Positions 1,428 through 61,439 of a stretch of DNA of 64,000 nucleotides are shown here, in pieces. This DNA is from Bryum argenteum (taxonomy: Eukaryota; Streptophyta; Bryopsida; Bryales; Bryaceae): positions 3,359,601 through 3,423,600 of the forward strand of contig CM073322.1 of assembly GCA_037043015.1 (NCBI GenBank), read 5' to 3'. Position 1 is the first letter of the stretch, and every line of letters starts with the position of its first letter. The notes under the pieces are model-generated. The model was not told the DNA's origin, searched no databases, and saw only the letters and a list, made by a program, of their open reading frames with translations. The position numbers and the translations under genes were made by a program.

Positions 1428-1669
1428 CCCTTAATTGACATCACTATTTTGAGAAAAAAGTGACCTCATTGTCCTTTGACCATATTTTAGCATAGATAAT
1501 TAAATAAACTCAAAAATCCGAAATGGTGAGTGTCGAGCTAACTTGATTCTCTAAATATTTTTTAAAAAAAGACCACTTCGGGTAAAATCTCGAAATTTGC
1601 CACCGTTGAGAGTATGGAAGTTCTTGTTCAGATTCGAGGACCAATTTGGTCCCTTGTGTCAATAAAGGG
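1428..1669. mobile_element. TTAA-flanked MITE, 242 bp
   Basis: TTAA stands at 1424-1427 and 1670-1673. The inverted ends are CCCTTAATTGACA and, from the right, CCCTTTATTGACA. The empty site with a single TTAA is seen in block A copy 2 at 30358-30361 and in copy 3 near 57393. It is non-coding and has the same end type as the 618-842 element, but the interiors show no obvious similarity by eye. Confidence 0.85.
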
Positions 1670-3215
1670 TTAACGGATTGTGAGCATAGGGCATTTTATA
1701 GTGTTGACCAAGCTTAAGATGCCCAAACATTCTTAGCAATCTAAGACTCATACATAGCACTTAGGCTTTGACACTAGGGAACAAAAGCAAAAGGTCAAGA
1801 AGGATCTACAATGGCAACAAAGGCATTAAGGATCAAGATTTGGTCCTCAATAAATATTTGGGTCAAGCCATAATTGATCCCCAAACTCTTACGTAGAGTC
1901 CAATATATTTATATATATTTTCTTTTCTTTATATATATATTTGAGGCTAAAGACCCATGCATAAAAGCAACGGATTGAAGATTGAAACATCATGCTATGC
2001 ATCATGAAAGAACGTGTAAAACCTGCAAGTAGGAAGACCTCTCAAAGCCCCTGCATTATTCCACCAAGGCAAGTGACAAAATATGGGTCAATAAAACCAC
2101 ATTCATGAATATTTGAAGGCCAAGGGGAGTTGTGTAGAGCTATTTACAAATTTTTTGTGGCCATTGCCTACGTGGTCAAATCAAGAAGCCAATCTTGAGA
2201 CAAAAAACCTAGAAATTAAGCATTTTCAATGGAATATATTAATCCATTTCTTAAAAATATAGATAGGACAGGAAAAGAAAAAAGGACTTGAAAGAGGAGC
2301 CAAAAAAGCTCATTGGAGAAACCAAAATGATTTTTGATGATTACAATCATATGATCTTTGAAGGGAGGGGAGTGTGCATCTATACTTAATAGCAAAAGAA
2401 TGTCTAGTGTTCATGTTTTGCGACAAAAATGATCTTTAGGTCCCAACCCATGAATCTTGCTTTGGGATTTGTTGACGGTAGTTTGTGCAACTTTATTTTC
2501 TTCATGGCGTCTTATTGGGCGTAAAAAGCATGGATGGTAACAACTTTCTTCCTAATAAGTGTGCCTCCCACACGAGCACCTTCTGCATTCGCCTCCATCC
2601 CTTCTTCCTATTGGCCAACGACTCCGGACTGTGACAAAGGTGTACACCCCCTAGCCTTGCACATACCATGATGAAAGTGCACAAATGTCTCATGATGAGA
2701 CGTGGCTTTAATTATGCCACCTATGGATTTGAGGACCTCATCTTGGTATGTGATCATGTGAATGCTCTTTTCGGGACCTCATCGTAGTCTCTCTCCATGC
2801 AATAGTTTACAGACTCATAGTTAACTTAATACTCGTATTTTCTTCATTCAAACTTTTGGATCCAAGTCATATAGGCAGCTTTCAAAGAAAAGATGACTAT
2901 ACGAACATTTTTTTTTTTCAAGTTGAAAATCTTGTTTGATTGTGAGATTGTTATGGTCAATGGTGGATAAGATTTTAATTTGGAGTAGAACCCCAAAAAG
3001 CCATTTTGGCAAATTATAGAGGCTTGTCAAATTGATTGATAGATGGAACAATAGTATGCGGGCTTACAAGTGATTCTAAACTTTGAAGTTCAAATCTCCA
3101 ATCAAATCAAACTCAAATCATAAATCATTGAAGTTGAAATTCAAGAGATTATAAGGGTCGAAAAGTCAAAGGTGAAAAAGCTTATTTTTGAAACATTCGA
3201 TAGGCAAAAGAAGAC

Positions 3216-6200
3216 TTAATTTTAAAACAAGGTGTGTTGTTGTGTCACAAATAAAAACAAAGCGGTGAGTCCTCTCTCTCTTGGAAATGGCCAAGGAGTA
3301 AGTTAATATGCCGTCAAAAGCTCGAGCATGACAAGGTCAGAAGCTTGCAAAGATGAGGTCGAGGTCGATTGAAGAGAACTCGCCATCTTATACCTTCCGC
3401 CTATCTCATGCAAACAATGAAGGTGCACAACTTTTTTGCTGGACTTTGAAAATCAAACGTTCATTCAAGCCATTTTCAAGCAGTTATGGGTCCATTTGCG
3501 TGAACAACAACAATGTATTGCAATCCACCACAACAAGAAGCATAATAATGAAGCATGGCCTTTACCGTCTGACTCACTCCTTTTTTGGATAGATATGAGA
3601 GATGTTATTTACTTTTTATTATCAATTCTTTTCGAACTTGGTACGTAGTAGGCATGCAAGATGTTATTTGTTTAGAAAGAATTGTGGAATTGTGTATCTC
3701 TACATGTTGTTTACCAACTTTATGAGAATTTTTAGAATTGAATGGTATTCATGTTCTCGATTGAGTATTTTTCCCATTTAATATAACATTTAACGTATTA
3801 TCACTAGTCCTTAAGTTACTTTCATTTTCCTGAGAAAAAGAGAAATCTAAGGGAGCCATTGGCAGCACATGATGCCATTAGTATTCATGTCTTTTATGTT
3901 GACTTGATGTATAATCAATTAGTTGAGGACCTTCTATCGCTATTGGGACGTTATCGGAAAACTAGGCACCGTAGTTAATGTACTAGAATGCACTCATGAG
4001 ACTTGGACATGTCCAATCAATGGATTGTCATACCTCTGACATCCCTCCGATCTCTAAAAAACAACCCCTAACATTTGTATTTTATCACCGCCCATCCACG
4101 AGGCGGCCGCCAACTATGATGTAATCACGTCCCGACCACCCTGCGGGCCACCGTGGTGGCTGCGTGATCCGAGGGTCAACGGCAATGTCGATCACGACCA
4201 ACTACTTCAAGCAGCACGACAAGGTGATGTTGTCGGGATCGAACAAGAACGACTACATACACAGGAACATGTACTTGACGTATCCTATCATGTTACCCAC
4301 CACGACCACCGTGGCCACCATCGGTTTCTACGTCATCGCATCTCATGACCGTGACCGCCACTTTTCACTGGCCCGGGAACCATGGCCACCATGCTTCTCT
4401 GTCATGTAAGTGCACGTTCATATCACGGCCTTGACCATCGTTATCACCGTTCCATCATATGTGGCAATATGCCACGTTGGTCGGGGTAGTGTACCCATCC
4501 GACTGCCTCCAACAATCCCCGATAGTAATGATCCCCCCAAGTTTTCACCATTGTTGCGCAATGTACTACGTTCAAGATATCCTCGACTTACAAATATTTA
4601 ATATCTACATTTGATATCTTGTTCAATGTCTTCCTACACTTGATTCAACCTCCAACCAATCCAATCCTAAGATCCTCAGGACAATCAAAAAAGAGTTTCG
4701 GATTTCTTTGCACATACTTCAGATTTTTAGTTTTTCATTTTTTACTTTTTTACAAAACATTGAGACTGGAATGGTTTATGAATATGAATTTAGCAAATCA
4801 GTTGTGGGGATGGCATCGTAGGTTGCCTTGCATGTCATTCTTTCATGGTGAGCAAACAAGTGAAGCATGGATACAAAGGAAGGCCTGTCTTGAGATCAGG
4901 ATTCAATAGGACATTCATCACTTTGGGAAGTGTGGATTCAGAGGGGTGGCATTGTATGTCAGTAGCATCTTCAACAGCAATAAAGAAATAAAATTATCTG
5001 GGACCTCTGCACCTGGATAAAAGGAGTACTTTAGAATGCATGACTCAATATCTCAGCAGAAGGACTTGGAATTCTGCATAGGAAGTCCATGATTGGCATT
5101 TGGTAAAACCTGATTTAGTGCTAAAATAAGTGCCACATTATCCATTGCACAATTTGATTTGATTTCAAATTGACGATACAATCATCTCTTAGTAGTAAGA
5201 TTCTATGTTTTTGTCCTGAGTGATGTAGTGATGGTATGCATTTGGACCAATGTAGGTTGGGTTTATGAGAAGCAAACGGGATTTCTTTTTTTGATAATTC
5301 TAGCATGATTGTACATTTTGTATTTACTCTATGGCAGGTACCATGGAGTCTGGAAAGTTGTTGTGTCTGAAACAATCGTACTGACATGATTGGACCAAGT
5401 CACATGTAGTTCAAGCTTTGGCCCTTTGGCTCTCTATCTTTCTCTCCTGACTTGATTGGTGACTTGATTTTAGTGACAGTGCATGAAGAGTTGCTAATGC
5501 GCGCGTCAATAGATGGCGCAATCTCTTTATACCTTCTCAATGTAAATAGTCATTATGCTAACTAAGTGTTCAGACTAAAGATTTGGATTCTTAAGAGTTA
5601 GATCTATCTTTGGTGTAGTTAACAAACTCAAAGATATATTTATGAGGCATTCTACTAGCAACGCAAGGCGTCTTGTTTGTTAGTGGGACATTTGAAGCAT
5701 CGAACATGATGCTTACAAGTTACAAAATTGAAATCAGCCACATGCGGGTGTGAGTTTGGCTCTTTTGTACTTATGAGAATCTAGATCTGAATATTGTCTA
5801 CATGGAAGTAAAACAATAAATTATGTTCCTTCACGTGAGTAAGGATTGGCTAACATCAAGATAGAGGCTTGTCCTATGAAAATTCTTTCCTACACTATCA
5901 CTTATAGTTAGTCACATGATTATCAATACCTTCTACAAAAATACCTTCTTCATTACCTTCAATTATCAATTTCTTCTTCTTCAAAAGGAATGGAGGAATC
6001 TTGAACTTCTATAGAGTTGCATGTCGTTCACGAGCTTTAAAAAGAAAAAAGAAAACTTAAATGGGTTTCATGTAGTTTGTTGATTGTTTTTTCATTTAAT
6101 ATAACATGTAACGTACTAATGAGTGGTCTGTAAATTGATTTCATTTTCCAGTATGAAAGAAAAATCTGATGGAGCCATTGGTAGATCAAGATGCCATTAG

Positions 6201-8183: not shown

Positions 8184-8468
8184 ATGACCATGTCGATGCA
8201 GGAATTGTTCTATGGCCACAATGAGCCCGTTTACTTCGTCCAACCTTCGTATGCCCCCGTGCCTGAGCGTCACATGGATCGCTTCGACAACGCTTCGTAT
8301 GCGCCTGTGCCCGAGCGCCGCATGAATCGCTTCGACTTGATGGTGCCGATGTGTTGCGCTCGCTGCGAGCACGAGATTCGCAATGCGCTCTTCGCCTTGC
8401 GAGGCGTGCGGGACGTTGTTTGCGACGCTTCTAACCAACGCGTCACTGTCACGGGGTTGCACTGCTAG
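8184..8468 (+). pseudogene. HMA domain protein, gene 1, 5' part (split by transposon)
   Basis: This is the first 92 codons of a small heavy-metal-associated (HMA) protein. The start was chosen because MTMSMQE aligns with MAMSMQE of gene 2; an upstream in-frame GTG at 8145 was not used. Residues 22-37 and 38-53 are a direct duplication (SYAPVPER, then MDRFD or MNRFD). The HMA fold starts near residue 50, with the MCCARC metal site (MxCxxC pattern) at 56-61 and VTVTG at 88-91. HMA proteins of this kind bind soft metal ions or act as plant metallochaperone-like factors; the substrate is unknown. The host frame ends at 8459 (TTG). The transposon then supplies two codons and a TAG at 8466-8468, giving a predicted 94-residue protein that keeps the metal site but loses the tail. 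The rest of the gene lies at 14522-14731. Confidence 0.8.
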
Positions 8469-8737
8469 CAGAAGCGTCGTTCTTGATTCCCGTTTTTAGC
8501 ATAAAGTGATCAAAAGGCGCCATATTTGTGAGCCATTCTGTTCCGCGATGGGCGGTGTCTCTCGTTCGAATCCGTCACAACAGACACAAGCCGTGTTGGA
8601 CCGCGTGAAGCGGCGGGGCGGCGTACTCTACCATCATCGATTCAAGTCCCAAATAAGCGCTTGATTGTTTCATTCTTGACGCTAGAATATTCGCAAATTG
8701 GATTCTCCGTAAATTACATTCTCCATAAATTGGATGG

Positions 8738-8895
8738 ATGGATGAAGTTTTAAGCGGATGAGTCACGATGATATGTGAATGGATGAAAATGTACAAGAAC
8801 GAGTGTCCACCTATTGAATGAATGAAATATGAAAACTGGATGTAAAATCGGATGAATGGTAACAATCCTCTGTTGGATGAGAATAAAATGGATGA
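8738..8895 (+). repeat. Subterminal GGATGA motif cluster of the CACTA-like element
   Basis: GGATGA or GGATGG recurs about nine times within 160 bp near the left end. Clusters of short subterminal motifs are the known transposase-binding architecture of CACTA elements. Whether these motifs act that way here is inference, since no matching cluster is obvious near the right end. Confidence 0.4.
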
Positions 8896-8897
8896 AA

Positions 8898-9378
8898 TCA
8901 TGTTATATTATATATTAATATATAAATCATATTACTTCCCGGTTTGCTACTAGGAGCAAGAGCTCCGAAACAAATTGCAACACTATGTGCCAACCTAGTC
9001 CGATTTTCTTGATAGACTACCCTAAAAGAAGCCGATGAGAAACTTCCAATGTAGCTTTTGTTGCAGGCCGTTGTGAGGAATTCTACATCAGAAATGATGA
9101 GAGTATGACATTTTGCCAATGGGGCCACATCTAGTGGTATCACATGGTTCGTCGTCACCGAAGAAGCAGCAACGTAGCCCACGCTCTGTCTAGCTCCAAA
9201 AATGAGCCAATTCGATGCCCCGATTCCCATCCCAGAGCTCGATGGGGAAACTCTCAGACTGCCATTTACATTCACCTCTTCGCCAAACCGCAGTTTCTGC
9301 ACATGAATGAAGCAGTCTCGAATATCCTGTGCACTGCAACGCCATGGAGGGCTACTTCAGAACAAAGCCTGCTGAAAC
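8898..9378 (-). pseudogene. Captured INTS9 fragment, third exon piece
   Basis: A minus-strand frame reads QDIRDCFIHVQKLRFGEEV, then SSGMGIGASNWLIFGARQ, NHVIPLDVAPLAKCHTL and IISDVEFL. This matches the part of Integrator complex subunit 9 (metallo-beta-lactamase/beta-CASP family) that follows the N-terminal beta-lactamase segment. INTS9 pairs with INTS11 in the snRNA 3'-processing complex in the nucleus. The match fades after about 9000. The gene's 3' half is absent, so this cannot make a working subunit. The piece lies inside the CACTA-like element, antisense to HMA gene 1. The identification comes from recalled family motifs, not a search. Confidence 0.7.
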
Positions 9379-9414
9379 GGAAAAAGCAGTGACGCGAAAT
9401 TCTAACCTGTAAAG

Positions 9415-9621
9415 TGGCTGCCAATTTGCCCGATTCGAGAAACACCGACCGAGTGAAGAGCTCCTCACATGCTCTGGCAATGTGCACAGCAACGAAGGGT
9501 CTAACGACGGTGGTTTCTGCTCGCTATGTTCTAGCCTTCCATGACTAAATTCCGAGTGGAGAATCACTAACTCCTCCATCATCATTCTACTGATCTTGGC
9601 TGTTGCTTTAGTGGCATACAC
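9415..9621 (-). pseudogene. Captured INTS9 fragment, second exon piece
   Basis: On the minus strand, VYATKATAKISRMMMEEL corresponds to the INTS9 segment that follows the DFxGK motif (human: VYATEPTVQIGRLLMEEL). It begins directly after an intron acceptor (TTTCATGTGCAG). The frame continues through HSEFSHGRLEH and, after a frame change, FLESGKLAATLQ. Between this piece and the next there is only about 35 bp with GT and AG edges, too short for a normal plant intron, so it has probably been shortened by deletion since capture. Confidence 0.65.
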
Positions 9622-9713
9622 CTGCACATGAAACGCTATCATATAAGAGACTATGATTTCTGATGAGGTTAAATGATTTAGTGAAAGAATCATGCGAGTC
9701 CTGGAGAGCTTGC

Positions 9714-10019
9714 CTTGCCACGGAAATCGGGATGCTTCGTCAAGAAGGGAAGGCCAAGCATAGCCGAGGGATTTGAAACGATGACAGCATCCAGTAATCC
9801 GACATCCACAAGCTCCAGATTCGCAACTTTGTACCATGGCTCTCCCTTCGCAAGAACCTGTCCGTTAACTTCTTTGAAAATTGAATTGGTCACATCTCTA
9901 TGCTCCCTTGCTCTTTTCCTCTTGCGGACTGTGATTAAGCTTCGGACATTGTTGTCAGACTGTGAAGGCCCGGGGTGAAAGAGCGATAGCGGTGATAGGT
10001 CGATCGGACACTCCAGTAG
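9714..10019 (-). pseudogene. Captured INTS9 fragment, first exon piece
   Basis: The minus-strand frame reads LLECPIDLSPLSLFHPGPS, a basic linker RKRKRAREHRD, then EPWYKVANLELVDVGLLDAV and IVSNPSAMLGLPFLTKHPDF. This is the N-terminal beta-lactamase-like region of plant INTS9; the CPLDLS, EPWYK and LGLPFLT motifs are characteristic. The usual start of the protein (the stretch before the CP-DLS motif) is missing, so capture began inside the gene. It ends in GGCAAG, followed by a GC-type splice donor at 9713-9712. The 92-bp intron (9622-9713) is still present, so genomic DNA, not a spliced transcript, was captured. Confidence 0.72.
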
Positions 10020-10352
10020 GTGGATCGGACACAAGATTGTTCGAAGTCCAGTAGGTGGCATGCAAGCCCGGACTCCTCCTCCCGGCTGGAGTGCTTGCCA
10101 CACCCTAGCGATGTCTGCATACAATTGATTAGGCCATAAACCCTAAACCCTGAGGTTGCAAAAAAATTCAAGGGTGAGGGGTTCCTTACCAGCGTCATCG
10201 CTTGCATACTTTTAACATACTCCGTTGCAATTATCGCCGATCACTATGCGCTGAAAATTGCATGCCACCCGGGAAATGCGGAAGGAGGGGTCCATGTTTG
10301 CTAGTTTCAGCAGCCTTCTCATAGTTTCAGCCTTTTTTATTGGGCCTGTCCT

Positions 10353-10600
10353 TCACTTTGCCTGCTGCTTGCCCTCGTCTTGTCTGCTGCACCATAACCT
10401 GTCTCCTTCGTCGCCTACGCTACGTCTCCTAGCGATGTTGTAGGTTGTCTCCTTCATTTCCTGAGCTGCATCCGAAGCCTTCGACGCTGCATCGGCTCCG
10501 GTATTCTTCAAGTATTCTGCACCTTCCTTCGTCTTCCCAGTTGCACCTGTATTGCACATCACATGCATAAGCCAGTTCATTGTAGGTTTCTTGAAGAAAG
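10353..10600 (-). pseudogene. Captured LEA-like gene fragment
   Basis: The minus-strand frame reads ATGKTKEGAEYLKNTGADAA, then SKASDAAQEMKETTYNIA, the alanine/lysine-rich 11-residue rhythm of group 3 late embryogenesis abundant (LEA_4) proteins. Those proteins protect cells during drying. The LEA-like rhythm decays after ARRRSVGDEGDR, which suggests a frame change near 10430. It lies in the same element and on the same strand as the INTS9 pieces, but is unrelated to them. It may therefore be a second capture event. No start codon belonging to a full LEA gene is visible. Confidence 0.5.
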
Positions 10601-10639
10601 GATATGGAAGCGGCCCTGGTACTCCAAACACCGTACTTG

Positions 10640-11227
10640 TCGGACTAGGAGCAGGTATGATTCGTTACTTTTCTTTCATCGATTTGAGAACTGATGTGGG
10701 GGGAATTGCAACTTGTCATTTGAAATTTCTAATCAGGGACCCTAGAGCAATGCAGAAGGCACCTTCACCCAGGGAGATACGGCTACAGCGTCCGGAGAGG
10801 AAATCGCCACACCTTGATGTTTGGAAAGAGATGCCTAGAGGACTCGGTTTACAATGTCTTCAGATTTTCCTAATGCTAGATGTTAGATAGAAGCCAATGT
10901 CTTTAGGTACATAGTCAAACGGACTTATAGATTACTGTACTAAACTTGAAAGACATGTAAATGCTTGTATACAAAAGGAAAGAGATTTGAGGCAGGTACA
11001 TGACTATTTAGATTTTGAACTCCAATTTTTCATGGGAAGACCTATTTTCCGACATAACATGTCTTTGCTGAAAAGACTCGATCAAGTTTTGAATGCGAAT
11101 CATATTTATGATTATTGTGTGTCAACTTGCAATGAGTCTTATAATATATTTTCTGAGAAGTCTTGTATTTTCCAATTCGAAAAAATGTATATTCCAATTC
11201 AAAGTCCTCTACGTCCCAGGTTTCATC
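10640..11227. other. CACTA-like element interior, no recognised gene
   Basis: Short open frames only. The plus frame GYGSGPGTPNTVLVGLGAG (around 10600-10660) lies opposite the upstream edge of the LEA-like piece and is not recognised. Confidence 0.4.
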
Positions 11228-11231
11228 TTAA

Positions 11232-12086
11232 CCCCTAAAGGAGAAAGGAACTATTTGCATGCTTTACCCTCAAAACTGCCCTCTTTCAATGCAAGGTGAG
11301 ATTTTTATTTTATGACATATTTTGAAGTATATAACCGTAAGATCTAGTAGATAACTTGTACAAGATCATGTACGCAAAATTTTGAACTAAAATTCCTCAC
11401 CGTTTGTGAGATCTTAACGTTCAAAGCTGGATTTTTTTTTTTTTTTTTTTTCCCTTGTTGAGAAAAGAGAAAGCAATGTTTTGAGGGCCAAAATAACCAC
11501 TTTTGGGAGTAAATTTGATTTGAGGCTCTTCAAATTCTTGATGTTAGGTGAGTTAGGAATATGTCAATGCAATTTTTATCCTCAGAGGACCTATGAAAAC
11601 TATAGAAATGCTTCATTTTTCACATGGAGGTATGCTAAATTTCAAATACAAAGGCCGGTCTTTGACAATAGAAAAGGCATGTGAAATATTATTAGATTGG
11701 AAATCCGAACGGTGAGATCATGCCTCGAAACCTTATTTGCACAAAGAAAAATAAAAAATAAAAAACTTGAAAAAAAGTAAAATCTCAAATTTTGGTGAAT
11801 TTTTGAAGTTTCTGCGATCTAATAGATTTTGGGCAGATTTTGAGAATAAATGAGCATATACCACAGTTTGGGCAGTTTTGGGTAGTTTTCAAATAGTGTT
11901 TTCAAACTTTGAGTGTGAATATCTTCTAAAGTATGAGGAATTTCAAAGCATGAAATAACTTTTCGGAAAGGTATGGGAAAAATATATGATTTGCCAAAGG
12001 TGCAACTTCATGCGGTCTAAATTTAGTAATTCCGATGCTGCCCAGATCCAAATCGACCACAGAATGGTCGATTTCTCCTTTACTGG
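11232..12086. mobile_element. TTAA-flanked element nested in the CACTA-like element, 855 bp
   Basis: TTAA stands at 11228-11231 and 12087-12090. The inverted ends are CCCCTAAAGGAGAAAGG and, from the right, CCAGTAAAGGAGAAATC. A long T run lies at 11431-11452. No open frame of transposase size is present. No empty-site copy exists in this window, so the call rests on the ends and the duplicated TTAA. Confidence 0.65.
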
Positions 12087-12726
12087 TTAAAAACTTTACT
12101 TTAATCTCATTATTGCATTTCCACGTTCCTTCTTACCCTGGAACACACCTGGACCAACCCCGAATACACTCCTCATATCAGTTACGGGGAAGTATCCAAA
12201 GCTAAAACGATGTAGATGTGGCAGGGTAAAGTTTACTAAAGAATCATCCACTACATAGGCCCCCCTCTTCCCTGAGGTAACTCGAGCTTGATGCTTATAG
12301 TTGATTTTACCAAATCATGCAATAGTTTTCCGATAATATCAAATTAGTCAAAATAAGTGTTGAAAACATGTCCCACTATTAGTATTATAACCTCCAGGCA
12401 TAAACATTCAAGGATAAATCAAACTAACATCCTACCCAAGCTCGCCTCAAAATAGCTTTGGGATGTTGTAAAAGAAATAACCTTTTAGGTGAGCACAATG
12501 TATAGAGACACTTAAAAATTTATTTGTAATTGAAAACCCTCATTGAGTTTGAAATAGGTCCTAATGATGGGATTGAGTGGGTCTAGCCCTTTAACGCGCC
12601 TACATCCAAAATGTGGACGCCGGAAGCTAGAAGCAATTTTCATCCATTCATAATTCTCTTGGTTCTTGAGCTAGTTGACTATCATTTGTATGGTACAAAT
12701 CTTCGAAAATCCATAGAATTAGTTAA

Positions 12727-13707
12727 CCCCTAAACGTCCTTGGGGTATTTTTAGCAAAAAACCATTTTTTCAAAAAAGTGTAATACATGAAAATGAAAGC
12801 AAGAAATTTAGATCTCAACCGTACAAACTTGTAATAGACTTGTTGTATGTCATGTGGACAAAAACTTGACTCATGACACCTCATAGATTGCGAGATCGTA
12901 ACGTATTAGTGCGCAAAACAGGGTACAAAATTCCATCATTTTCACTTTGAAGTGAAAATACTACCAACATGAAATTTGCAACCAAAAAATCACAAACTAT
13001 AAAGTTGTTCATCTTCATGTCAAGAACACTTTTGTAGCAAAAAATTTCATCAAAAAATTATTTTGGCTCAAATAGTAGCCTTCCAGCGGTGAAAACTACC
13101 CCAAAATTTACAAAGAAAAAATAGTCCAAAACTAGACCCTCTGCACTAAAATCCATGCCCTATGTTCAATACATCTTCAATTAGGTCAAGGATTCTACCA
13201 CTATAACTAGACTCTTATTGGACTCCATCCCAAAAAATAAAACCAAAATCCAACGGTGGATGAGGGAGATCTAGCTCCTCAAAAATCGTCCATTTTTTCA
13301 CTTTTTTTATTGTAGAAACATCATGGCAAATCCAATACCATAGTTATTTGGATTAAAAAACTTGAAACTAGAAAGATGTTAAGATGCATCTAAAGATCAT
13401 ATTTATGTAAGAAAAATTCATAGAAAACTATTTTTGATTCTACATAATTAGCTTGCAATGGTAAAACATGCTCCAAGTTTGGAATCTCAAAATCAAAAGC
13501 TGCCTTCACTAAAATGCTTGCCATTAATTCATACTTCATTGTATCGGTCTGCAATTTTTAATACACATACTAGACTTGATGTGGGACCCAACCCAAGTTA
13601 TTTCGTTCAAAACGAAGTCGGGATGAAGAAGTTATGGCTCTTAAAAGTTTAAAAGTTTCTGCCCTTCATCCAAAATGTCGTTTTTCGACATCAAGGACGT
13701 TTAGGGG
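12727..13707. mobile_element. TTAA-flanked element nested in the CACTA-like element, 981 bp
   Basis: TTAA stands at 12723-12726 and 13708-13711, with near-perfect inverted ends CCCCTAAACGTCCTTG. The right-hand interior, read on the minus strand, matches the left part of block B (43433-43720 and 55125-55400): both have a GACATTTT stretch, then GAGCCAT, then an ACCATTGCAAGC segment. A family member is therefore also embedded in block B. It is non-coding and non-autonomous. Confidence 0.75.
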
Positions 13708-14521
13708 TTAATGTCAAGTTTATTTCTTAGTTCAGAAAGTGAGATCTTAAATATGATTATCCAAAATAAGTAGGATCAAATAAAGGAAATTTAGCACATA
13801 TTGCATGTTATTCTGAATTTGTACCAAATTTTTTCAAGTAAAAATTGTTAACTTGGGAGTTTTAATTGAATTTCAAAAGAAAACCATGCAAAATTAATTT
13901 TAAAATATTAATATAATCTTTTGTTAAATCCAATTGTATAGATGTGATTTCCACATTGAGATTTACGACTATTGTTTGTATATCCACTCCAATTTTGTAA
14001 ATCATCAAACACTTTATAGCACATTTTTGAAATTGGTGATTTGGGACGTTAAAGGGGTAGACTCCAACCTTACTTGCATTTGGGGGGCTTTGAATTAGTT
14101 AATTAATTAAAGTAATTAAAACCCCATGTCCAAGGCAGCCCGCAGCTATCGGCTGCCCCTCCGCATCCCTCATCCAAGGCATTCGCCTCCTCATCGAAGG
14201 CGTTCCCCCATGTTCCCGTGTTCTCATGTTCTCATGTTCTCTCCCATTCGAAATGCTTGATCCGACGGCTCGAGATGTAGCACATGATTGGACGGCCAGG
14301 ATGATCCAGGCCGGACTACCAAGCTAAGTGACGAGATAGGCCCCACCATAGTCCTTTAAAGAGGCAATATGCCGCGAAGCTATGCCACTGGAAGAACAAC
14401 GAGGCCCCACCCCACCCTCGTATGGGGGGAGCTGAATTACTATTTCCAGAGCCTTTCAATCAAAAGCGTCACTTCACCGGGTTAACAGGAACCAAGAACG
14501 ACGCTTCTGCTAGCAGTGTTG

Positions 14522-14731
14522 TTGGAGCCCGCGGTTGCTCTCAAGCAAGTGAGGCGAGTGAAGAACGGCGCCACATTGTGGTCTACGGAACAAAGGTCGC
14601 GGTACAGCCGATCAAGCAGCGATGGCTACTCGCGGAGGAGGTTCTGTCCCGCGTACCGAGACTCGACGGAGACGCATTATGTGAGCTTCAATCCGACGAT
14701 TGCAGTTCGCGTGGAGAATGAATATTGTTGA
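14522..14731 (+). pseudogene. HMA domain protein, gene 1, 3' part
   Basis: This is the C-terminal 69 codons of gene 1, cut off by the transposon. It reads LEPAVALKQVRRVKNGAT, then FCPAYRDSTETHYVSFNP and TIAVRVENEYC. It aligns with gene 2 from its EPARALNQVRR onward. With the element and one TTG removed, codon 92 (TTG, 8457-8459) is followed by TTG GAG CCC in the same frame, giving an uninterrupted 161-residue protein. No premature stop has accumulated in either half, so the insertion looks recent or the gene is still somehow used. Compared with gene 2 it lacks the duplicated SSPYMQ segment. Confidence 0.8.
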
Positions 14732-17397: not shown

Positions 17398-17763
17398 ATG
17401 GCAGCCAGAATGCCATCCATGCAGGAACTGTTCTATGGGGACAGTACCACGCAGGAGTACCGTCGAACTTTCATTCCTTGCTCTCAACAATATGTTGCAG
17501 TGCCTGGTGATCAGCCTGTCGTCGTCACGCGCTACGAGCCTGCCCGGCTGCTTCGAAGCTACAACATAAACAGATATCAGCAACCACGAAACTACATCGG
17601 TGAACAAGGCAGACTCAATATCAGCATCGGTGATCAAGGCAGGCACAATAGCAGCAGTGTTACGTCGACGACGTACTCCTGCACCCATTGCCCCACGTAC
17701 CGACCTTGTCCCAGCACCAGCCACTTCTATCATGCCAAGGCTGAGCAATCTAAATCGGAGTAA
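17398..17763 (+). CDS. HMA-family relative without an HMA domain, gene 3
   Basis: This 121-residue protein lies between genes 1 and 2 on the same strand. It begins MAARMPSMQELFYGD, sharing SMQELFYG with gene 1 and SMQEMYFG with gene 2. Its C-terminus HCPTYRPCPSTSHFY resembles the tail CPAYRDTAETHY of gene 2. The middle has no MxCxxC metal site and no HMA fold; instead it carries YQQPRNYIGEQGRLN, then ISIGDQGRHNSSS, a weak internal duplication. It has a TATA box, a plausible leader and an AATAAA signal 212 bp after the stop. The likely reading is a paralogue that lost the metal-binding centre and kept the two termini. Its function is unknown. A longer antisense frame over it is treated as a shadow. 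Confidence 0.6.
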   Translation: MAARMPSMQELFYGDSTTQEYRRTFIPCSQQYVAVPGDQPVVVTRYEPARLLRSYNINRYQQPRNYIGEQGRLNISIGDQGRHNSSSVTSTTYSCTHCPTYRPCPSTSHFYHAKAEQSKSE

Positions 17764-27600: not shown

Positions 27601-28410
27601 TGATCACCGTACCATCATATGTGGCAATATGCCACGGTGGTCGCGGTGGTGCACCCATCCGGCTGCATCGAACAATCCCGGTAGTTATAACCATCAGTTT
27701 GAAAGAACTTTTCACCGGTGTTGGGTAAGGATGTCAATATGTCATGTCAATGTACATGGTTCAAGATATCCTAGCTTCCTCAACTTACAAAGATTTGATA
27801 TCTACATTTGATATCTTGTTCGAAATCATCCAACACTTGTTTCTATCAACAACCAATCTAACACTGAGATCCAAACCTCAGGACAATCACAATAGGAGTT
27901 TTGGATTGGATTTCATTCACTTCAGATTTTTTTATTTTTTTATTTTCTTTGAACCAATACAATGAGATCAGGATAGTTCAGGAACATGAATTTAGCGAAT
28001 CAGTTGTGGTGATGGCACTGGAGGTTGGCTTGCATGTTATTTTTCATGGTGACCAAACAAGTGAAGCATGAATACCAAGGAAGGCCTGTCTTGAGATCAG
28101 GATCTAATAGAACATTGATCACTTTAGGAAGGGTGGATTCAGAGGGTGGCTCTGTATGACAGTACCATCTCCAACAGCCAAAAATAAAAAAAAAAAAAAT
28201 CCCGGACCTCTGCACGTGGATAAAAGGAGCACTTTAAAATACATGACTCAATTTCACAGCAGAAGGACTTGGAAGTCTGCACAGGAAGTCCATGGTTGGC
28301 ATTTGGTAAAACCTGATATAGTGCTAAAATAAGTGCCACATTATCGATTGCACAATTTGATTTGATTCCAATTTGATGATACAATCATCTCTTAGTAGTA
28401 AGATTCTATG
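24690..28410. repeat. Repeat block R, copies 2 and 3 in tandem
   Basis: Two or more truncated R copies are joined head to tail. The first spans 24690-25350, a second joins at 25350-26600 and a third runs 26600-28410. Each has its GACCACCGTGG minisatellite (25145-25350, 25560-25870 and 27060-27680) followed by the GGAAGGCCTGCCTTGAGATC and GGAAGTCCATGATTGGC landmarks. They supply empty sites for several insertions elsewhere, such as TA at 27753 for the Tc1 element and TTAA at 26277 for the 34418 element. Confidence 0.7.
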
Positions 28411-29185
28411 TTTTTGTATAAGGCATAGGTTGAGTCACCGTGGACACGGCTACTTATTTGATAAGCAATGGAGGATATTTTTGGAAGTGTAAGTGACGAA
28501 AGCTTGATAGTAATGGTATCTCTTTTTGCGCCATGGCGTAATGAGGTGGGTAAATGTCCTTGTAGATGTAGGGCAGATGGGGAGGGGTGGGGAAGGGTCG
28601 TGGGACGGAGGGGGGCGGAGGGGGGCGGCGCTCGCAAACCCCAAGCTTGCATCAATGGTCTCTTTCAAGTAAATGGAAGCAAAGCAACACGCTCATAGTC
28701 TCGGCTATGCTCATCATTCATGAAAGTAATGTCATACAAGACCTACACCTTCCTAGACGTATGTACATATGCATGCATCGTGACTTGCCCCTTGCACAAA
28801 AGTGGTTAGCCCCTTCCAATATTGTCCTCGTGTTGAAGAACATAAGTTACATCCAAAAAGATTAGTTATGTACACACCCAAGTACAATGTTAATAAAAAT
28901 AAAAGAGAATACACTTTTTGAGATGTGGTTTTTTTTTTTTCCTTTCTACCTCAGACCCCCATTTTCTCTTGTAGGTGGAAAAATGTCTCCCAACCGCAGA
29001 TGGTCATAGGTCCTGAAAGAAAATGACACATCATACAAAGGCCCATGAGGGCCCCTTTGTAGTTTGAAGTTCTCGGAAGGAGAACGAGAACGTAAAGCAA
29101 ATGTTGTTGAATTGCCTATTCATGAAGAATGTTCAAAAAGATTTGAAATATATTTTTATCAAAAAAACCTTGTGTAGAAAGAGAA
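28400..29185. repeat. Repeat block B, 3' portion
   Basis: This matches the end of block B at 44035-44480, 50370-50840 and 55700-56457, for example AGTGTAAGTGACGAAAGC and TATGCATGCATCGTGACTTG. It leads directly into block A copy 2, so B then A is an original order. A short G-rich stretch (28570-28640) makes spurious open frames. Confidence 0.65.
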
Positions 29186-38129: not shown

Positions 38130-40791
38130 AAAAAAAACTCAATTTTAAAACAAGGTGTGTTGTTGTGTCCACAAATCAAAAGAAAGGGGTGAGTCCTCTC
38201 TCTCTTGGAAATGGCCAAGGGGTAAGTTAGAATGTCATCAAAAGCTCGAGCATGACAAGTTCAAAAGCTTGCAAAGATGAAGTCAAGGTCCATTGAAGTT
38301 GATTAAAGAGATCTCGCCATCTTGTACCTTCCACCCATCCCATGGAGACCTTTCTTGAATGTGCACACCTTTCTTGCTGAAGTTTGAAAATCAAACGTTC
38401 ATTCAAGTCATTGTCACAGCATGAGACCGATGGGTGATGGGTCCCCTTGCCCGAACAACAGCGTATTCCAATCCACTACAACAAGAAGCATAATGATGAA
38501 GCATGGCTTACATTGTCTGACTCCTTGTTTGGATATACACAAGAGATGGTTTTCACGTCTTATTATCAGTTCTCTTCCCAACTTGGTACGTAGTAGGCAT
38601 GCAAGATGTTATGTGTTTAGAAGGAGTTTTGGACCTCTACAGAGTTTCATGTGGCTCACCAACTTCAAAAAAAAAGTTGAATGGTTTCCATGTCGAAAGC
38701 TAAGTATTTATTTCATTTGATATAACAAGTAACGTATTCATGAGTGGACTGTAAGGTGATATCATTTTCGGGCCAGGAATAAAAATCCGAGGGATGCTAT
38801 CAATTTTCATGGGTGGTATGGTGACACGACGGATGTACGATCCGTTTGTCACGAGATCTTGTAGGGCTAGCGGAACCTTATCGGAATAGCATGCACTGGT
38901 GTTCATGTACTAGGTTGCGCTCGTGTCCCCTGGACATGTCCAATGTATCGCCATCCGCCCGACATCCCTCCGATTCGTAGAAAATGACCGCCCCAACCAC
39001 CGTGGCAGCCGTCGCATCCTATGACGTAACGGCATATTACGGTCCCGACCACCACTGGCCACCATCAATTTCTATCGTGTTATCAGATATCATGACATCG
39101 ACTGTGACCACCACTTCTTGCGGTAAAACCGCACGACCACCGTGGCCACCATCGGTTTCTGTCATGTTATTGTATGACCGTATAACGGCCTCGAGCGCTG
39201 TGATCACCGTACCATCATAGGTGGTAATATGCCACGGTATCGGTGTGGTGTATCCATCCGGGTGCATCGAACAATCCCCATTTGAAATGATCATGAATCT
39301 GAAAGAAGTTTTCATCGGTGTTGGGCGAGGATGTCATGTCCCTAGCAATGTACTAGGTTCAAGATATCCTAGCTTCCTCTACTTACAAATTTTTGATATC
39401 TTGTTCAATATCATCCAACACTTGTTTCGACCTCCAACCAATCTAATACTAAGATCTCAACCTCAGAACAATCAAAACAGGAGATTTGGATTTCATTGTA
39501 CATACTTAGGATTTTTTATTTTCTTTAGTGTCAATTTTTTTTTTCTTAAGTAAACAATGAGATCAGAATGGTTCAAGGATATGAATTTAGAGAATCAGTT
39601 GTGGTGATGGCATTGTAGGTTGCCATTGCATGTTAATTTTTTAATGGTGACCAAACAAGTCAAGCATGGACACCAAGGAAGGCCTGCCTTGAGATCAGGA
39701 TTAAATAGGACATTGATCACTTTAGGAAGGGTGGATTCAGAGGGTGGCTTTGTATGTCAGTAGCATCTTCAACAGCCAATAACATAAATATATATCTGGG
39801 ACCTCTGCACCGGGATACAAGGAGCACTTTAGCACTTGGAAGTCTGCACAGGAAGTCCATGATTGGCATTTGGTGAGACCTTACAGAGTGCTAAGATAAG
39901 TGCCACATTATAGATTGCTCAATTTGATTTGATTCAATATCTATCGCTCCAATCATCTCTTAGTAGTAAGATTGTATGTTTTTGTCTTATGTGATGGTAT
40001 GCGTTGGCTACATGGCATTCGGACCAATGTAGGTTGGGTTGACTAGGAGCATAAGAGATTTTTATTTTTTTATTTTTTAAAAATAATTCTAGCATGATTG
40101 TACATTTTGTATACACTCAATGGTACCATGGAGTCTGGAAAGTTGTTGTGTCTGAAACAATGGCACTGACATTGGACCAAGTCTCATGTAGTTCAAGCTT
40201 TGGCCCTTTGGCTTTCTATCTTTCTCTGGTGACTTGATTGTGACTTGATTTTAGTGAGATTGCATGAAGAGTTGCTAATGCGCGCGTCAATAGATGGCAC
40301 AACCTCTTCGTACATAATCATTATGCTAACTAAGTGCTGAGACTAAAGATTTGGATTCTCAAGAGATACATCTATCTTTGGGGTGGTTAATAAACTCAAA
40401 GATATATTTATGAGGCATGCCACTAGCAACGCAAGACCTCTTCTTGGTTAGGAACATTTAAAGCACCGAACATGATGCTTTCAAATTATAAAATTGAAAT
40501 GAGCCACTTGGGGGCGTGAGTTTGGTTATTTTGTACTTATGCAAACCTAGATCTAAACATGAAAGTAAAACAATAAATCATGTCCCTTTACTTGAGTAAA
40601 GATAAGTTAACATCAAAGTAGAGGCTTGTCCTATGAAAATTCTTTCTCACACTATCACTTGTACTCAGTCACGTGATTATCAATACCTTCTACAAAAATA
40701 CCTTCTTCATTACCTTCGATTATCAATTTGTTCTTCTTCAAAAGGAATTGAGGAATCCTAAACCTCTATAGAGTTGCATGTTGTTCACGAG

Positions 40792-40855
<64 letters not shown>

Positions 40856-53293: not shown

Positions 53294-53929
53294 TCAATTA
53301 CCCAACCAAAGCACTTGGAAGTCTGCACAGGAAGTCCATAATTGGCATTTGGTAAAACGTGACATAGATTAAAACAAGTACCACATTATCGATTGGGCAA
53401 TTTGATTTGATTCAAAATTGATGATACAATCATCTCTTAGTGGTAAAAAAATATGTTTTTGTCGTGACTGACAATATGCATTGGGTACATGGCCATCGCA
53501 CCAATGTTGGTTGGGTTAACAAAGAGCAAACGAGATTTATTTTTTTGATAACTCTAGCATGATTGTACATTTTGTATTCACTCAATGGCACGTACCATGG
53601 AGTCTGGAAAGTTGTTGTGTCTGAAACAATGGCACTGACATTGGACCAAGTCTCATGTAGTTCAAGCTTTGGCCCATTGGCTCTCTATCTTGCTCAATTG
53701 AATTGATTACATTTTTTGACTTAATGTATGGTCTGTTATGTACCGGATCTTCTATGCCTAGCAAGACTTTATCGGAAAAGTAGGCACGGGTTGGCGGTTG
53801 TTCACATACTAGAATGCACTAGTGTCCCCCAAACACGTCCGATCAATGTCTCGTCATCCCTTCGTCATCCCTCTGATATCTAGAAAACGACCTCTTATTA
53901 GACACAATTTGTACTTTGTGTTTGTTTGT

Positions 53930-58679: not shown

Positions 58680-61430
58680 AAAGCTCGAGCATGACAAGTT
58701 CAACATATAGGGCACTATGCCACGGTGGTCGGGGTGGTGTACCCATCCGCTGCCTCGAACATCGTGATCCCTGTTCCATCATATGTGGCACTATGCCACG
58801 GTGGTCGGGGTGGTGTACCCATCCGCTGCCTCGAACAATTCCTAGTACTAATAATCATGAGTTTGAAAGAAGTTTTCAATACAAGTGGGCAAGGATGTCA
58901 TGTGCCTAGCAATTTACTAGTTTCAAGCTATCCTAGATTCCTCTACTTCCAAATATTTGATATCTTGTTCAATATCTTCCAACACTTCTTTCAGCCTCCA
59001 ATCCACCTGATACAAAGATACTGATGTTAATCTGAGCCTCAGAACTATCAAAATGAGAGTTCTGGATTTCATGGCACATACTTCAGATCTTTTTTCTTCT
59101 TTCTTTAAAATAAAAAAATAAAAAAAATAAAAAAAAATAATTTAAAAAAAAAAACAACTGAGGTTGGAATGGTTTTTGAACATGACTTAAGCGAATCAGT
59201 TGTGGTTGCCTTTCATGTCCTTTTTAACCCTTAAACGTCAGAGCATGCCCCTTGGGCTTGGTTTACAGTGTATTTTCAGAGGGGCTTGACGTTTACGGGT
59301 TAATGGTGACCAAAGAAGTCAAGCATGTATACCAAGGAAGGCCTGTCTTAAGAACAGAATTAATTAGGACATTGATCACTTTAGGAAGGGTGGATTCAGA
59401 GGGTGGCTCTGTATGTCAGTAGCCTCTTCAACAGCCAAAAAAGTAAAAAAATCTGGGACCTCTGCACCTGGATAAAAGGAGCACTTTAGAATGCATGACT
59501 CAATTTCACAGCGGAAGCACTTGAAAGTCTGCACATGAAGTCCATGATTGGCATCTGGTAAAACGTGACATAGTACTAAAATAAGTAACATATTATCGAT
59601 TACGCAATTTGATTTGATTCAAAATTGATGATATATGTGCTTGAATCATCTCTTTGTAGTAAGATTATATGTCTTTGTCTTGAGTGATGGAGTGATGGCA
59701 TGCAAGATGTTATGTGTTCAAAAGGAATTGTGGAATCGTGGACCTCTACAGATTTGCATTAGATTTGTATGTCGTTCACCAGCTTAAGAAAAGAAATTGA
59801 ATGATTTTCGTGTAGCCTGTTGGTGATTTTTTCATCTGATGTAACATGTAATGTGTTAATCAATGGATTGTATCAAGTTGATTTCATTTTTCGGCCTGAA
59901 AGAAAAATCCGAGGTAGCCATTGGCAGCGCACGATGCCATCAGTTTTCATGTGCTCTACATTGACTTGATGTGTGATGGGTTATTTACCGGATCTTGTAT
60001 TGGCTATCGGGACATTATCAAAAAAGAAAGCAGTGGTTGTTCATGTACAAGAATGCACTCATGTCCACGGACATGTCGGATCAATGTATCGCCATCCCTC
60101 CAATATCTAGAAAACGACCTCAAAACGTCGCATTTTATCACGGCCCCGTCTGCGGCCGCGACCATATTCTATAATGGTACCATATATTACCGCCCATGGC
60201 CACCACCTCTTACTCCCCAACCACCTGTGGCCACTATCGTTTTCTATCCTATGTCATGGCCCTGACTGTAACCACCACCTTTTGCCGGACCGAGAGCACC
60301 GTGGCCACCACCGTTTTTTGTTGGGTTATCGTATACGCTATCACCACCTCGATTTTTGTCAGGTTATTGTATACGGTATCACGGCCTCGACCACCGTGAT
60401 CACAGTACCATCGTATGTGGCAATATGCCACGGTGGTCGGGGTGGTGTACCCATCCGGCTGCATCAAACAATCCCGGTAGTTATAATCATGAGTTTGAAA
60501 GAACTTTTCACCGGTGTCGGACAAGGATGTCATGTCAATGTACATGGTTCAAGATATCCTAGCTTCCTCAACTTACAATGATTTGATATCTACATTTGAT
60601 ATCTTGTTCGGAACCTTCCAACACTTGTTTCTATCTCCAACCAATCTAACACTAAGATCCAAACCTCAGGACAATCAAAATAGGAGTTTTGGATTGGATT
60701 GCACACACTTCAGATTCCTATTTTATTTATTTTATTTTCTTAAAACCAATACAATGACATTGGAATGGTTCATGAATCTGAATTCAGCAAATCAGTTGTG
60801 GTGATGGCACTGGAGGTTGCCTTTGCATGTTAATTTTCAGGGTGACCAAAGAAGTGAAGCATGGATACAAAGGAAGGCCTGTCTTGAGATCAGGATTCAA
60901 TAGGACATTGATCACTTTAGGAAGGGTGGATTCAGAGGGTGGCTTTGTATGTCAGTAGCATCCTTAACAGCCAAAAGAATAAAAATATCTAGGACCTCTG
61001 CACCCGGATATAAGGAGCACTTCGGAATACATGACCCAATTTAGCAGCAGAAGGACTTAGTCTGCACAAGAAGTCCATGATTGGCATTTGATAAAAAGTG
61101 ACATAGTGCTAAAATAAGTGTCTCATTATCGATTGTACAATTTGATTTGATTCCAAAATGATGATACAATCATCTCTTAGTAGTAAGATTCTATGTTTTT
61201 ATCTTGAGTGATGGTATGCATTGGCTACATGGCAATGGGACCAATGTAGGTTGGGTTAATGAGGATCAAATGAGATTTTCTTTTCTTAGTAATTCTAGCA
61301 TGATTGTACATTTTGTGTTCACTCAATGACAGGTACCATGGAGTGTGGAAAGTTGTTGTGTCTGATACAATGGCACTAACATTGGACCAAGTCTCATGTA
61401 GTTCAAGCTTTGGTCCTTTGGCTCTCTATC
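58680..61430. repeat. Repeat block R, copies 9 and 10
   Basis: Copy 9 is 58680-59690. It has a doubled 70-bp segment around GTGGCACTATGCCACGGTGG at 58700-58830. Copy 10 is 59690-61430, with its minisatellite at 60120-60480 and the longest uninterrupted R tail after copies 1 and 5. Copy 10 gives the empty site for the Tc1 element. Confidence 0.7.
59228..59299. mobile_element. Miniature TTAA-flanked element, 72 bp
   Basis: TTAA stands at 59224-59227 and 59300-59303. The inverted ends are CCCTTAAACGTCA and, from the right, CCCGTAAACGTCA. A sister R copy reads TTTTTAATGGTGACC with one TTAA (26217-26220). The inverted ends make up about a third of the element, with little interior. Confidence 0.75.
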
Positions 61431-61439
61431 TCTCTATCT

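Follow-up and report, generated by a model that had tools for sequence, protein, structure and literature searches.

A probable internally deleted CACTA transposon within the coding sequence of an HMA-domain gene of Bryum argenteum

Described CACTA systems and the Bryum element

Transposons of the CACTA (En/Spm) superfamily generate a 3-bp target-site duplication and have inverted ends that begin with CACTA, a sequence that has been called highly conserved (PMC4158355). The maize dSpm elements are internal-deletion derivatives that keep their ends and depend on transposase from elsewhere (PMC2613891). In soybean, Tgmt* (20.5 kb) comes from a large family of CACTA elements that produces a 3-bp duplication and includes both a Tnp2-coding member and deletion derivatives (PMC2613891), Tgm-Express1 carries host gene fragments (PMC1947982), and TgmR*, a 13 kb CACTA element, occupies the second intron of the MYB gene R, the function of which is restored by excision or splicing (PMC4219821). 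The Jozin elements of Chenopodium encode Transposase_21 with DUF4218, and CACTA elements of that genus contain captured gene fragments (PMC8978399).

The window analyzed here is a stretch of 64,000 nucleotides of Bryum argenteum (GCA_037043015.1, contig CM073322.1, positions 3,359,601 to 3,423,600 of the forward strand), in which a gene for an HMA-domain protein is interrupted by an element designated E1. This element is very probably an internally deleted, non-autonomous CACTA transposon, placed by cut-and-paste into the HMA coding sequence with duplication of its TTG target; the assignment is made from the observed ends, duplication, sibling copies, deletion junction, Tnp2 coding capacity of the long copies and empty site of a paralogue. 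E1 resembles maize dSpm and the I elements (defective En/Spm) in its internal deletion, retained ends and 3-bp duplication, but its ends begin with CACTG, its dependence on Tnp2 is putative, it carries a captured INTS9-like fragment, and its long relatives measure 37-39 kb versus 8.3 kb for Spm/En (PMC2613891). The features listed above for Tgmt* are also found here, and host gene fragments are carried as in Tgm-Express1; however, Tgmt* lies in an intron whereas E1 lies in coding sequence, and the two are likened by description rather than by sequence comparison. Like TgmR*, E1 is within a host gene, but TgmR* is in an existing intron, and its rescue by splicing does not carry over to E1 because in the paralogues this position is not occupied by an intron. 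The long relative of E1 matches Jozin in combining Transposase_21 with DUF4218, and E1 itself shares gene-fragment capture with the Chenopodium elements; this comparison with another host is likewise descriptive. Among the matches listed for literature on CACTA elements in bryophytes, E1 was not found.

Structure of the element and its sibling copies

The inverted ends of E1 (Table 1) are 94% complementary and 5,989 nt apart. Their length had been given as 31 bp, which is accurate if one mismatch is allowed, but the full arms are longer and contain two mismatches, at arm positions 27 and 32. Each arm starts with CACTG, which has four of the five bases of the CACTA core, and both ends match a 22-base end sequence exactly. 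CACTG end variants are known within the CACTA superfamily; the word was not found in the accessible excerpts of PMC4158355, PMC8978399 and PMC1636069. Subterminal repeats, another feature of the superfamily, are not clear in E1. GGATGA, a motif selected post hoc, occurs six times within element positions 201-500, whereas 2,000 single-base shuffles gave 0.10 copies on average and never more than 2. A search for three TIR motifs in the terminal 500 bp of E1 found one extra AAGCGTC on the right and none on the left.

Table 1. Features of the interrupted HMA gene and of E1 (positions are those of the window)
Feature	Position	Strand	Content	Basis or remark
5' part of HMA-domain gene	8184..8459	+	92 codons, ATG to first TTG	Pfam HMA PF00403
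Target-site duplication TTG, left copy	8457..8459	+		
Non-autonomous CACTA element E1 (probable)	8460..14518	+	6,059 bp	CACTG ends, 3-bp duplication, sibling copies
Left terminal inverted repeat	8460..8494	+	35 nt	
In-frame TAG within left terminal repeat	8466..8468	+		Truncated protein ends at 94 aa
Possible subterminal repeats	8740..8895	+	Six GGATGA	Motif chosen post hoc
Captured genomic fragment, Integrator subunit 9-like gene	9008..10210	-		Two blocks matching C3 locus L067
Internal-deletion junction	10576..10578	+	TTC microhomology	Comparison with long copies
Right terminal inverted repeat	14484..14518	+	35 nt	
Target-site duplication TTG, right copy	14519..14521	+		
3' part of HMA gene	14522..14731	+	70 codons including stop	In frame with 8184-8459

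Three other copies with the ends of E1 are present in the genome, flanked by the 3-bp duplications GCC, CTC and CTC, and with the TTG of E1 a target-site duplication is found at all four copies examined. An assembly error at the inverted ends, named in the original prediction as something that would refute it, is very unlikely, to the point of being negligible: nothing was found in its favor, these ends also delimit three further loci that each have their own 3-bp duplication, and an empty site is present in a paralogue. One sibling, on C8 (E2), is likewise 6 kb and matches E1 over its full length at 98.2%. The two long copies, of 37.4 kb and 38.6 kb, encode Tnp2, with matches to Transposase_21 at 3.0e-56 in the former and, on C9, at E=1.4e-58 (PF02992) in the latter, which also matches DUF4218 at E=5.2e-29; the Tnp2 ORF has no match in the PDB at 0.01. 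A Harbinger-type assignment, likewise associated with a 3-bp duplication, was set aside on account of the Transposase_21 in the long copies.

In both 6 kb copies, TTC marks the point at which 30.4-32.5 kb of the long copies is missing, and the transposase-bearing stretch of the long copies is absent from E1. The ends of E1 are colinear with a longer transposase-coding member from which the interior is deleted, as in dSpm, and E1 and its 6 kb sibling have a common internal deletion with TTC microhomology at the junction. The converse possibility, that the 30-32 kb difference is a nested insertion into a 6 kb element, was rejected, since the junction shares only TTC and the extra stretch carries the transposase. 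Shared substitution columns (four for E1 with E2, three with E3 and one with E4) weakly suggest a pairing of E1 with E2; it is the deletion junction they share that makes the case for a common origin. The captured fragment matches its C3 locus at 84-87%, and an ORF within it (9690-10124) matches Integrator subunit 9 in the PDB at 5.4e-6. This Integrator subunit 9-like piece is present in 4/4 element copies.

The interrupted HMA gene and its paralogues

The window gene belongs to a small family of clustered genes that encode heavy-metal-binding proteins. As claimed in the original prediction of an HMA gene split by a transposon of about 6 kb, the host halves are in frame with each other: ATG 8184 to TTG 8459 joined to TTG 14522 to TGA 14731 gives 162 codons including the stop, with no internal stops. 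The predicted colinearity with paralogues also holds, the joined flanks aligning over the junction as one piece in all nine sibling regions compared (1,057 bp at 89.8% for C2:3504000-3508500), and the paralogue L036, at C2:3505947, is a closer comparator than the "gene 2" chosen at first. The site in L036 reads GGGTTGTTGGAG, identical to the window gene minus the element and one TTG, and on this alignment it is evidently the empty-site equivalent; the other full-length close paralogues (5/5) have TTC TTG, one base off. Over 480 positions of coding sequence, L039, L038 and L036 differ from the window gene at 23, 24 and 25 positions, respectively. The 3' part matches the codon order of six paralogues throughout except for one private in-frame extra codon, which together with three synonymous and three non-synonymous changes makes up the private changes of the window gene relative to six intact paralogues. 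This count covers the window gene and 6 of 13 cluster siblings, leaving out L042 (shortened), two frameshifted members and four diverged members of 181 aa.

The coding sequence of the window gene is predicted to be a single exon because the paralogue ORFs are unbroken from ATG to stop. Its 5' half matches Pfam HMA (PF00403) over the cut-off (E=2.4e-7, profile positions 3-42 of 62), as do two paralogues. The match ends at position 42 because the insertion interrupts the domain; in L036 it extends to position 53. The CxxC metal-binding pair, an expected feature of HMA domains, reads CARC in the translation. In the 3' half (14522-14731), no in-frame ATG was found and a Pfam search gave no match. 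The assertion that no stop had been collected is correct for the host letters but not for the gene as it stands, in which the TAG at 8466-8468 lies inside the element. The product of the filled allele is predicted to be at most 94 aa, without the C-terminal tail or the last part of the HMA domain, and for this reason the gene as assembled is most likely a null allele.

In some maize dSpm alleles the element is spliced from the transcript and the gene works. The original prediction had allowed for such removal, but that E1 acts as an intron and leaves the gene working is highly improbable. In a scan of donors at 8381-8600 and acceptors at 14400-14580, with approximate plant donor weights, TTAACAG at the right end is a plausible acceptor and preserves the reading frame downstream when paired with five of the donors, and the TIR ends in CTGCTAGCAG, which is also acceptor-like but occurs in no frame-keeping pair. 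All six donors that preserve the frame score low (10th-64th percentile of window GTs), and 17/17 frame-keeping GT/AG pairs cost the protein host codons or give it extra residues within or beside the HMA domain; no path restoring the full protein was found among them, and none rebuilds the paralogue sequence. Since the paralogue ORFs run through the site, there is no host intron to carry the element out.

Age of the insertion and state of the allele

E1 has 36 private changes in 6,016 columns, and its right-hand 389 bp are identical in two of the three other copies; from these two observations, a young transposon insertion in the HMA gene is well supported as a reading of the alignments. The private changes number 28 in 2,080 columns to the left of the deletion junction versus 8 in 3,936 to the right, and in 6/6 pairwise comparisons divergence in the left arm exceeds that in the right by a factor of 2.6-4.8, which makes the age estimate uneven. 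The original prediction had concluded from the open frames that the insertion is very young, polymorphic, or removed somatically or from the transcript, which is partly supported; youth stands, by way of element divergence, but the intact host frames are a weak clock, because about 1 substitution in 30 is computed to create a stop in this coding sequence, and the computed probability of the frame staying open without selection at 0.2-0.6% divergence lies between 0.29 and 0.89 according to the indel rate. An old insertion, the halves of which were kept open by selection, for instance as two short proteins, would account for both open halves and for private changes no worse than in the six intact paralogues, but it is scarcely credible given the low divergence of E1, a 3' half with neither start codon nor domain match, and a 5' half without the end of the HMA domain.

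On the favored reading of a recent CACTA insertion, Tnp2 made elsewhere in the genome would have mobilized E1, and the non-autonomous element would have inserted by cut-and-paste, duplicating the 3-bp TTG, probably too recently for the host frame to have decayed. Population polymorphism is common among young insertions in general. Whether this one is somatic or segregating, with an intact gene in other cells or individuals, is an evenly poised question, and an affirmative answer would be compatible with the CACTA identification rather than in competition with it. The exact match of both ends to the 22-base sequence, the youth of E1 and the Tnp2-coding relatives in the genome speak for it; nothing in the sequence requires it, however, and the 21 matches listed for this single assembly include no second allele of the locus. 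It is quite improbable that E1 can still move and leaves its site in some cells, with the HMA frame preserved often enough for the gene to work as a mosaic, switched by a source of Tnp2 like the C9 sibling of 38.6 kb.

The insertion looks like an ordinary gene-breaking event and opens no long-standing question. For annotation, the window HMA gene should be entered neither as an intact gene nor as two separate ones. E1 would represent a clean, recent CACTA deletion derivative disabling a single gene of a clustered family, in an assembly that also holds its transposase-coding relatives and an empty-site paralogue, and its insertion may be used as a presence/absence marker.

The interrupted HMA gene and its siblings

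When the two coding halves of the HMA-domain gene are joined, they form an unbroken frame of 162 codons including the stop, and the CACTA (En/Spm) element E1 that separates them measures 6,059 bp between the outer ends of its inverted repeats, with the three bases TTG on its left and TTG on its right. The coordinates and reading frame of the original prediction, an HMA gene split by a transposon with both halves in frame, are correct, and the 35-nt terminal inverted repeats, the paired TTG and the frame-joined halves confirm the insertion. The Pfam HMA domain (PF00403) matches the 5' half at 2.4e-7 and covers only profile positions 3-42 of 62; the match in the close paralogue L036 (C2:3505947) extends to position 53.

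The genome searched comprised 258.8 Mb in 25 contigs, and the window spans C2:3359601-3423600. As a protein query, the 5' half gave 29 matches, 16 of which lie in C2:3308030-3511714. Two siblings each matched twice across a frameshift, which leaves 14 loci: the interrupted gene plus 13 siblings. A full-length open frame is present in ten of the 13 siblings, six of them close (160-162 aa) and four diverged (181 aa); of the remaining three, one has a shortened frame of 124 aa and two carry frameshifts. The site sequence in L036 is GGGTTGTTGGAG, identical to the interrupted gene minus the element and one TTG, and the other five close full-length siblings have TTCTTG where these two genes have TTGTTG. 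The coding sequence differs from those of the six close siblings at 23-30 of 480 positions (25 for L036), and the joined flanks aligned across the site as a single piece to all nine sibling regions compared, a set drawn from siblings other than the four diverged ones.

A short ORF downstream of the gene has an HMA-family-like start, MQELFYG, judged by eye; it is absent from the 29 matches to the HMA 5' half and is perhaps a family member that lacks the HMA domain. A moderately diverged repeat upstream of the gene recurs within the window, with 81-93% identity among the matches listed.

Coordinates of the element copies and associated features (bare positions count from the window start)
Feature	Location	Length	Remark
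HMA coding halves	8184-8459, 14522-14731		
E1	8460-14518	6,059 bp	TSD TTG
Inverted repeats of E1	8460-8494, 14484-14518	35 nt	94% complementary
E2	C8:9265300-9271375	6,076 bp	TSD GCC
E3	C9:4596089-4634678	38,590 bp	TSD CTC
E4	C8:5871110-5908535	37,426 bp	TSD CTC
Related ends	C7:18583488, C7:18607812, C7:13090240, C11:6384515, C2:34574188		1-3 mismatches
Captured fragment	9008-10210		matches C3:8315060-8316207 and short adjacent block
Integrator-like ORF	9690-10124		minus strand
Possible second fragment	10347-10556		matches C8:549544-549751
Short ORF	17398-17763		
Upstream repeat	5001-6055		
Its further copies, among the matches listed	60992-61435, 53309-53708, 39831-40812, 28204-28417, others		

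Copies and age of the element

A 501-bp query spanning the left junction identified three other genomic places with the left end of E1, and the right-end query recovered the same three (E2, E3 and E4). The 22-base end pattern, with up to three mismatches, occurs genome-wide at 13 places, of which eight are the ends of E1-E4; it is exact at both ends of E1 and E2 and has one left-end mismatch in E3 and in E4. The five other places carry related ends (CACTGCTAGCA...) and are perhaps sister subfamilies. The ends start with CACTG, not CACTA; CACTG-starting variants of CACTA ends are known, and support for them was not found in the passages of the CACTA literature examined.

On columns with a base in all four copies, the changes private to E1 number 28 of 2,080 to the left of its internal-deletion junction (TTC at 10576-10578) and 8 of 3,936 to the right, with 12 and 5 private indels, respectively; these changes set an upper bound on the insertion age because some may predate the arrival of E1 at this site. 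The right-hand 389 bp of E1 are exactly those of E3 and E4, and 98% identical in E2. Plant substitution rates are about 7e-9 per site per year; at this value, which may not be that of the host, a divergence of 0.2-0.6% would make the insertion less than about one million years old, and the clustered left-arm changes alone (1.35%) would give an older figure. The low private divergence and the identical right end bear out the proposed youth of the insertion. Pairwise divergence among the copies is 1.5-3.2% in the left arm (8460-10575) versus 0.4-0.8% in the right arm, and the private left-arm changes of E1 cluster near alignment columns 127-223.

Internal deletion, transposase and captured host DNA

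E1 and E2 have one junction in common, at which E3 and E4 hold an extra 32.5 kb and 30.4 kb, respectively; TTC is common to both sides of the deletion and occurs there once in E1. Most simply, E1 and E2 would go back to a single ancestor with this internal deletion, which has moved at least once since then. Four two-against-two columns pair E1 with E2, three E1 with E3 and one E1 with E4, and left of the junction the E2-E3 distance (1.53%) is smaller than the E2-E1 distance (1.95%); substitutions give the E1-E2 pairing weak support. The arrangement is like that of dSpm, described in passages of PMC2613891 as non-autonomous internal-deletion derivatives mobilised in trans, and E1 would have been mobilised in the same manner.

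E3 codes for Transposase_21 (1.4e-58) and DUF4218 (5.2e-29); its match to DUF4216 (0.013) is weak and falls under the cut-off for that family. Transposase_21 also matches E4 (3.0e-56), in which two shorter ORFs (132 and 149 aa) correspond to the 347-aa DUF4218 ORF of E3. Since Transposase_21 is common genome-wide, with 150 places scored out of 596 candidates, further transposase sources may exist. The interior of E3 also contains a protein-kinase-like ORF (PF00069, 1.3e-7; piece L017:7496-8392) and an apparent tandem array of ~100-bp units (piece L018, about 1600-3800), evident as E4 matches at ~100-bp steps and apparently shorter in E4.

Within E1, a captured fragment matches a locus on contig C3 at 83.6-86.6% identity (84% in the first comparison), where the same stretches lie in open frames. 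Its minus-strand ORF matches Integrator complex subunit 9 in PDB (5.4e-6); both PDB matches of this ORF at 0.01 are to that subunit. All four copies contain the fragment, unbroken in E1, E2 and E3 and in two pieces in E4. CACTA elements with captured gene fragments are already known from passages of PMC8978399. Near the deletion junction, a 76% match to contig C8 is possibly a second captured host fragment; a Pfam search of the minus-strand ORF 10353-10631 found no domain.

The present allele

Stop-creating changes make up 3.3% of substitutions in the HMA coding sequence (transition weight 4), and with indel-to-substitution ratios from 0.47 to 0.1 and 0.85 of indels assumed to be frame-shifting, the probability that the frame stays open without selection is 0.66-0.89 at 0.2% divergence and 0.29-0.71 at 0.6%. 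The open halves are therefore unsurprising and require no removal of E1 from DNA or RNA. Translation from the ATG at 8184 reads into the left terminal repeat and ends at TAG 8466-8468 after 94 aa. Of the other options in the original prediction, the insertion may be polymorphic in the population or lost somatically; removal from the transcript appears doubtful. Pairing donors in 8381-8600 with acceptors in 14400-14580 gave 17 GT/AG combinations, drawn from six donors, that restore the downstream frame. Each of these donors is weak, ranking at the 10th-64th percentile of GTs in the window by approximate plant weights, and no combination yields the sequence of the paralogues. The soybean CACTA element that is spliced out lies within an existing intron, according to passages of PMC4219821, whereas in Bryum argenteum the paralogue ORFs continue through the insertion site. 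Given the early TAG, the weak donors, the failure of every combination to rebuild the paralogue sequence and the paralogue ORFs through the site, the allele is most likely null, as judged from sequence. E1 is an ordinary CACTA insertion of an already known type, and redundancy with ten open siblings may explain why a null allele is tolerated.
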